This document shows positions 20,304 to 22,816 of a stretch of 64,000 bases of DNA, piece after piece. A program made the position numbers and the translations under genes. Origin of the DNA: an uncultured Methanobrevibacter sp. (GTDB taxonomy: Archaea > Methanobacteriota > Methanobacteria > Methanobacteriales > Methanobacteriaceae); assembly GCF_902770715.1 (NCBI RefSeq), contig NZ_CACXTS010000007.1:1-64000 (forward strand), written 5' to 3'. Below the pieces are notes generated by a model. That model made no database searches. It saw only the letters and a program-made list of their open reading frames with translations, and had not been told where the DNA came from. Within the stretch, counting starts at the first letter, position 1. Every line of letters starts with the position of its first letter.

Positions 20304-22499
<2,196 letters not shown>

Positions 22500-22560
22500 G
22501 ATTATCATCTCCTTTTTGATGGCTGTAAAGTTAATAATTATAATTTGTCAAAATCTTTTT

Positions 22561-22575
22561 GTTACTTTTTGTAAC
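22561..22575. promoter_or_regulatory. Phr/HSR1-like dyad upstream of cdc48
   Basis: GTTAC-TTTTT-GTAAC is a perfect dyad about 10-25 bases downstream of the predicted cdc48 start site. Its TTAC-N5-GTAA core equals the core of the Pyrococcus furiosus Phr consensus as I recall it (TTTA-N2-TTAC-N5-GTAA-N2-TAAA); the outer boxes match only partly. A. fulgidus HSR1 recognises a similar N5 dyad before an operon that includes cdc48. Confidence 0.5.
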
Positions 22576-22606
22576 TTTATTGACAAGGATATCTGTGTAT
22601 GTTTTA

Positions 22607-22615
22607 CTATATAAA
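22607..22615 (-). promoter_or_regulatory. Probable TATA box of cdc48
   Basis: On the minus strand TTTATATAG is preceded by a purine-rich CGAAACC BRE-like element. The predicted transcription start is near 22585, giving an 86-base leader. The rest of the 317-base gap (22500-22816) is AT-rich, and I see no small gene in it. Confidence 0.55.
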
Positions 22616-22816
22616 GGTTTCGGTTTTGAAGATTTTTTTAAAACTAATGTAAAATAAGTTATTTCTTCTATAATTGATAATATATTCTTTATTATTATTG
22701 AAACAATTTTTATTTGCTAATCTATTTTAAAAAATAAAAATTAAAGGTTTATATTGAAATTAAAAATTTAATTACTTTATGACACTTTAACTTTTGTTCG
22801 TATTATCTAAAACAAG

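Follow-up and report, generated by a model that had tools for sequence, protein, structure and literature searches.

In Archaeoglobus fulgidus, hsp20 and cdc48 lie in the operon of the heat-shock regulator HSR1 (AF1298), and in bacteria the repressor HrcA controls grpE-dnaK together with its own gene from CIRCE, a leader-region operator made of a long dyad with an N9 spacer. Pyrococcus furiosus, to our knowledge, has no DnaK-GrpE chaperone system. By 2022, just two archaeal heat-shock regulators had been identified, Phr and HSR1, both from hyperthermophiles; Phr blocks the polymerase at the hsp20 start site, and the operator of HSR1 in A. fulgidus is CTAAC-N5-GTTAG (PMC9133787). The proteasome subunits of P. 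furiosus show no heat induction (PMC10746257).

The methanogen system described here resembles the Phr regulon of P. furiosus in its ArsR-type winged-helix regulator, which has an identical wing and a near-identical recognition helix, in a site at the transcription start with an N5-spaced TTAC/GTAA core, and in predicted targets that include hsp20, an AAA+ ATPase and the regulator's own gene. It differs in that the regulator, only 37% identical to Phr over about 115 residues, departs from it in the C-terminal half and is encoded divergently from grpE-dnaK, the sites are often paired, 33-37 bp apart, and the predicted regulon includes PAN and psmA. With HSR1 it shares hsp20, cdc48 and the core TAAC-N5-GTTA, which is the form found at the methanogen grpE/regulator promoter, whereas the methanogen regulator, hsp20 and cdc48 lie at separate loci. 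HrcA/CIRCE works alike, with grpE-dnaK and its own gene as targets, but is unrelated, since both protein family and operator differ. Judging from the sequences, the methanogen system would work like Phr and HSR1 and is related to Phr. We consider it highly probable that the dyad ahead of cdc48 in this Methanobrevibacter genome is the operator of a Phr-related repressor of the ArsR family with a proteostasis regulon that comprises its own gene, grpE-dnaK, hsp20, PAN and psmA.

The dyad in the cdc48 leader

Reading the window (the whole stretch of 64,000 nucleotides that was analysed) confirmed GTTACTTTTTGTAAC at exactly 22561-22575; on the minus strand, which codes for cdc48, this dyad of the form GTTAC-N5-GTAAC reads GTTACAAAAAGTAAC. 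The features of the region are as follows.

20304..22499, minus strand: cdc48, a CDC48 family AAA ATPase of 731 aa (TIGR01243 CDC48, 1043 bits against a cut-off of 802.65)
22545..22551, minus strand: 3' arm TTGACAA of an outer RNA stem, with the operator between the arms; in diverged relatives both arms have changed jointly
22561..22575, minus strand: predicted operator GTTACAAAAAGTAAC, of the TWAC-N5-GTWA class; conserved spacing from the TATA box, kindred dyads at other proteostasis promoters
22580..22586, minus strand: 5' arm TTGTCAA of the outer RNA stem, at the predicted cdc48 transcript start
22608..22623, minus strand: cdc48 core promoter, with the BRE CGAAACC at 22616-22623 and the TATA box TTTATATA at 22608-22615

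The gene starts at the ATG at 22499, with GGAG 9 nt before it and an alternative ATG at 22508. Its BRE and TATA box are strongly conserved in the leaders compared from named relatives, and the grpE promoter on C4 shares CGAAACCTTTATATA with the cdc48 core promoter. Judging from the usual archaeal TATA spacing, transcription is predicted to start near 22584-22587, which would put the dyad at about +10 to +25 of cdc48. The original prediction had named this dyad at this position and placed it just downstream of the predicted start site, and both statements agree with what we found.

The number of such sites is no argument in itself. TTAC-N5-GTAA occurs once in the window against 0.86 expected by chance, an unremarkable count, and across the genome it is rarer than its reversed control pattern; neither this pattern nor TNACMAAAAGTNA or TWACHWWWDGTWA is enriched genome-wide over reversed controls, so that the case for an operator is built on location and conservation. 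The full GTTAC-N5-GTAAC has just two copies in the 2.12-Mb genome, the second of which, AGTGTTACAATTTGTAACACTTTTTA (C71; L002 1498-1524), follows a stop codon in an intrinsic-terminator-like hairpin, and its dyad was judged coincidental. The genome's second TTACAAAAAGTAA (C24:1410) lies within a coding region and was likewise set aside. The strict pattern TWAC-HWWWD-GTWA is found at 43 sites in the 2.12 Mb, seven of them in five proteostasis promoters, for which a hand estimate (about 20 non-coding sites in an assumed ~0.3 Mb of non-coding DNA) gives an expectation of ~0.1; the remaining sites mostly fall within coding sequence or next to unrelated genes.

Conservation of the cdc48 site extends through much of the genus and beyond it. 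TWAC-(A/C)AAAA-GTWA is carried by 47 of the 66 cdc48 leaders of the genus Methanobrevibacter, roughly 40-48 bases away from where the TATA box starts, and comparison with the loci of named relatives showed that most close Methanobrevibacter have an identical site at an equal distance from the TATA box. The Methanosphaera cdc48 loci have TTACAAAAAGTAA downstream of the TATA box, and in several of them another such dyad precedes the BRE. Among the 66 genus leaders and the named relatives, the site is absent from M. smithii-like, M. millerae-like, M. ruminantium-like and several more distant lineages ('-like' species labels of numbered genomes being our assumption), and such relatives without the site (M. 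smithii-like, M. ruminantium-like and others) still encode the regulator. The original prediction had named absence of the dyad before cdc48 in related species as evidence against itself; the 47 leaders and Methanosphaera point the other way. In G017, a member of another genus of the family, the cdc48 leader (L234) contains GTAAC-AAAAG-TTTAC, a version of the operator with one mismatch and a hint that cdc48 may have been a target ancestrally.

With 0.86 sites expected in the window and many of the 47 genomes closely related, the dyad might be a chance palindrome of an AT-rich leader, kept only through the close kinship of the genomes compared. However, the site persists amid changed surrounding sequence in G127 (62% identity, Cdc48 N domain) and in Methanosphaera (67-68% identity), and it recurs at promoters of the same functional class. 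The fixed distance from the TATA box in relatives and the kindred dyads at other promoters thus lift the cdc48 dyad above chance, and we give a palindrome of this kind a next to negligible probability.

The Phr-like regulator and its candidate targets

Searching the genome with the Pyrococcus Phr sequence, checked against 2P4W, gave one good match, at C4:44225-44797 (37% identity over about 115 residues, E 1.1e-21), and in the reverse search the best PDB match of this protein was Phr 2P4W (E 3.9e-21). Its HTH domain matches HTH_5 with 51.5 bits, which makes it an ArsR-type HTH protein. The top NCBIfam match is NF053602 (Phr_regulator), with 87.2 bits over residues 40-128 only against a curated whole-protein cut-off of 320 bits; the protein thus falls outside Phr in the strict sense and belongs with it in a wider one, by its ArsR HTH domain and with Phr as its nearest characterised relative. 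Because the score is below the strict cut-off, we use the name Phr-like regulator. The recognition helix GQKA..HL and the wing RGRPRKYY are invariant in ten proteins that span Phr and Methanosphaera-like, Methanothermobacter-like and Methanothermus-like genomes, and the C-terminal half aligns poorly with Phr, so that sensing may differ. Homologues of the regulator were found in 113 of the 120 genomes of the family and in 145 of the 152 of the phylum.

Several winged-helix regulators occur per archaeal genome, and a further, weak ArsR match is present here (C12:87860, E 0.01), so the operator could belong to a regulator other than the Phr-like protein. Against this stand the DNA-reading residues of the latter, which match those of Phr, whose core is identical, and the conservation of the motif, which is highest at the Phr-like gene's own promoter. 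That another protein reads the operator strikes us as very improbable.

The promoter region next to the regulator gene links it to the chaperone genes. At 45 of 50 loci the regulator gene and grpE-dnaK are arranged divergently, two of the remaining five loci being cut by a contig end; in the genome under study, TAACAAAAAGTTA and TAACCAAAAGTTA lie in the shared promoter at a distance of 35 bp. Of the 50 loci, 48 have one or more TNAC-N5-GTNA dyads at this promoter and 45 have at least two, so that, as expected of a Phr/HSR1-type regulator, dyads stand upstream of the regulator gene in 48 of 50 cases; from this sequence pattern we predict that the regulator controls its own gene. Three genomes from two further families of the order also have a pair of dyads at the shared promoter, and TWAC-N5-GTWA dyads there reach as far as Methanothermobacter-like genomes. 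The grpE/regulator dyads of Methanosphaera keep their arms and change their spacer, which matches the expectation for a protein-binding dyad, and in several Methanobrevibacter the promoter of the regulator gene itself bears a third dyad, which has precisely the Phr form TTAC-N5-GTAA. In the deep-branching genome G139 (1,243,342 bp; L328), the regulator lies apart from grpE with no dyad near it, and an RNase P RNA-like gene seemingly adjoins it.

Altogether, N5 dyads with a TTAC/GTAA or TAAC/GTTA core were found at cdc48, grpE/regulator, hsp20, PAN and psmA. At hsp20, the sole copy in the genome, TAACAAAAAGTAA abuts the TATA box and TAACTTTTAGTAA lies 36 bp upstream; of nine further genomes tested, three (G052, G016 and G027) have one dyad each at hsp20. 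PAN has TTAC-N5-GTTA directly after its TATA box, and psmA, for the proteasome alpha subunit, has a dyad upstream of BRE/TATA; at both genes a dyad with differing spacers was present in five of five Methanobrevibacter genomes tested. No credible dyad was found at 19 thermosome promoters, the exception being a low-complexity TTACATT(A/C)TGTAA that two M. smithii-like genomes have ~160 bp upstream. Elsewhere in the genome, two overlapping dyads, TAACATTTAGTTACTAAAAGTAA (C5:31533-31555; L102 1534-1556), lie just past the TATA box of a gene for an ArsA/Get3-like ATPase, which we regard as another candidate for the regulon.

These results refine the original prediction as much as they support it. 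The Phr or HSR1 homologue that it had proposed to look for in the genome exists, as a Phr homologue that is near-universal in the phylum, and of the promoters it had proposed to scan, those of hsp20 and the proteasome genes carry the dyad and those of the thermosome do not. Its equation of the dyad core with the Phr form TTAC-N5-GTAA holds at cdc48, but TWAC-N5-GTWA is the better consensus, since it takes in the cores of Phr and of HSR1, and both forms, TTAC/GTAA and TAAC/GTTA, occur for apparently one regulator. The cdc48 site on which it had focused was borne out, but the central target would be grpE-dnaK rather than cdc48, and several relatives lack the cdc48 site. Its suggestion that a mesophilic gut methanogen keeps a switch of the Phr/HSR1 type gains support from the homologue and the conserved dyads.

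A predicted stem-loop in the cdc48 leader

Folding prediction renders the cdc48 leader (22545-22586) as a stem-loop with the dyad as inner stem and TTGTCAA/TTGACAA as outer stem. The MAFFT alignment A1 places the outer stem's 3' arm out of register; pairing was therefore assessed from duplex energies, with a permutation of arms among the species. In the clade of the genome under study the arms pair in nearly all leaders, with a mean duplex energy of -7.2 kcal/mol against -3.2 for shuffled arms, and the two arms of a leader form a better duplex with each other than with arms from other species; 52 of 5000 permutations were equally good, a modest significance explained by most arms being identical. 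The arms are replaced jointly in G127 (TGATGATT/AATCATCA) and largely so in G103 (CGAAAAT/ATTTTCG), which, together with the variable spacing between arms and operator, fits recognition as RNA rather than DNA. The cdc48 leader matched no family in Rfam, and protection of the mRNA 5' end is a guess at what the stem-loop may do.

The sister branch, which is without the N5 operator, has a leader hairpin at the equivalent place (L305-L308, L310, L311, L313, L314, L316-L318 and L312/L315), with wholly different self-complementary arms that include G-U pairs (GGTTAC/GTAACC, AGCTAC/GTAGCT, GACTGC/GCAGTC, CGGTTG/CAACCG and TGTTTC/GAAACA). Replacements there are compensatory, and 59 of 60 cells were paired against a permuted mean of 40, figures that lean towards structure because the arms were chosen for forming hairpins.

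The folding of the leader with the dyad as its inner stem, as well as these sister-group hairpins, could mean that the dyad is itself a leader RNA hairpin, serving mRNA stability or translation control, and no protein-binding DNA site. In the clade of the genome under study, however, the inner stem has lost at least one pair in 7 of the 47 leaders, whereas all 47 obey TWAC-N5-GTWA even where self-pairing of the strand is broken; 6 of the 47 have the mixed form TTAC-N5-GTTA, in which self-pairing is broken, and PAN has it too. Furthermore, the motif precedes the TATA box at psmA and hsp20 and the BRE at Methanosphaera cdc48, where transcription from those promoters would not reach it, and it recurs at the promoter of the regulator itself. 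As inner pairing breaks and half-sites stay, a pure RNA-hairpin reading of the dyad was rejected for this clade, and overall we hold such a reading to be very unlikely.

With the dyad read as an operator, the cdc48 leader might hold two overlapping control layers, a Phr-type DNA operator and a 5' RNA stem-loop, and the M. smithii-like/M. millerae-like branch, in which the operator is lost or re-spaced while differing leader hairpins remain, may have exchanged a DNA repressor for an RNA element in the control of cdc48. We put this forward tentatively, as a scenario that is possible but rather doubtful.

Proposed mechanism and its meaning

From a site, its conservation, a regulator, their linkage and a motif shared with other promoters, all of them observed, we infer binding, repression and release by heat. 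A homodimer of the winged-helix regulator would bind TWAC-N5-GTWA from a single face of the DNA, with one half-site per subunit. At cdc48, a dimer about 10-25 bp past the start would hinder recruitment or escape of RNA polymerase under normal conditions, and the regulator would also repress its own gene, grpE-dnaK, hsp20, PAN and psmA, the last from the site upstream of BRE/TATA, which is an odd placement for simple blocking and counts against the model. Under protein-damaging stress such as heat, the regulator would release its targets.

A literature search confined largely to open-access papers, with regulon databases such as RegPrecise outside its scope, found no prior description of a Phr/HSR1-type regulator or regulon in Methanobacteriales. 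The prediction would add a third archaeal heat-shock regulator, in an order whose members range from thermophiles to mesophilic methanogens of gut and rumen; it also suggests a single N5 dyad, TWAC-N5-GTWA, behind the two archaeal operators known so far. The predicted regulon would join the Hsp70 machine, a small heat-shock protein, Cdc48 and the proteasome, and, with operator and regulator gene defined, heat-shock control in methanogens of the human and livestock gut becomes directly testable.
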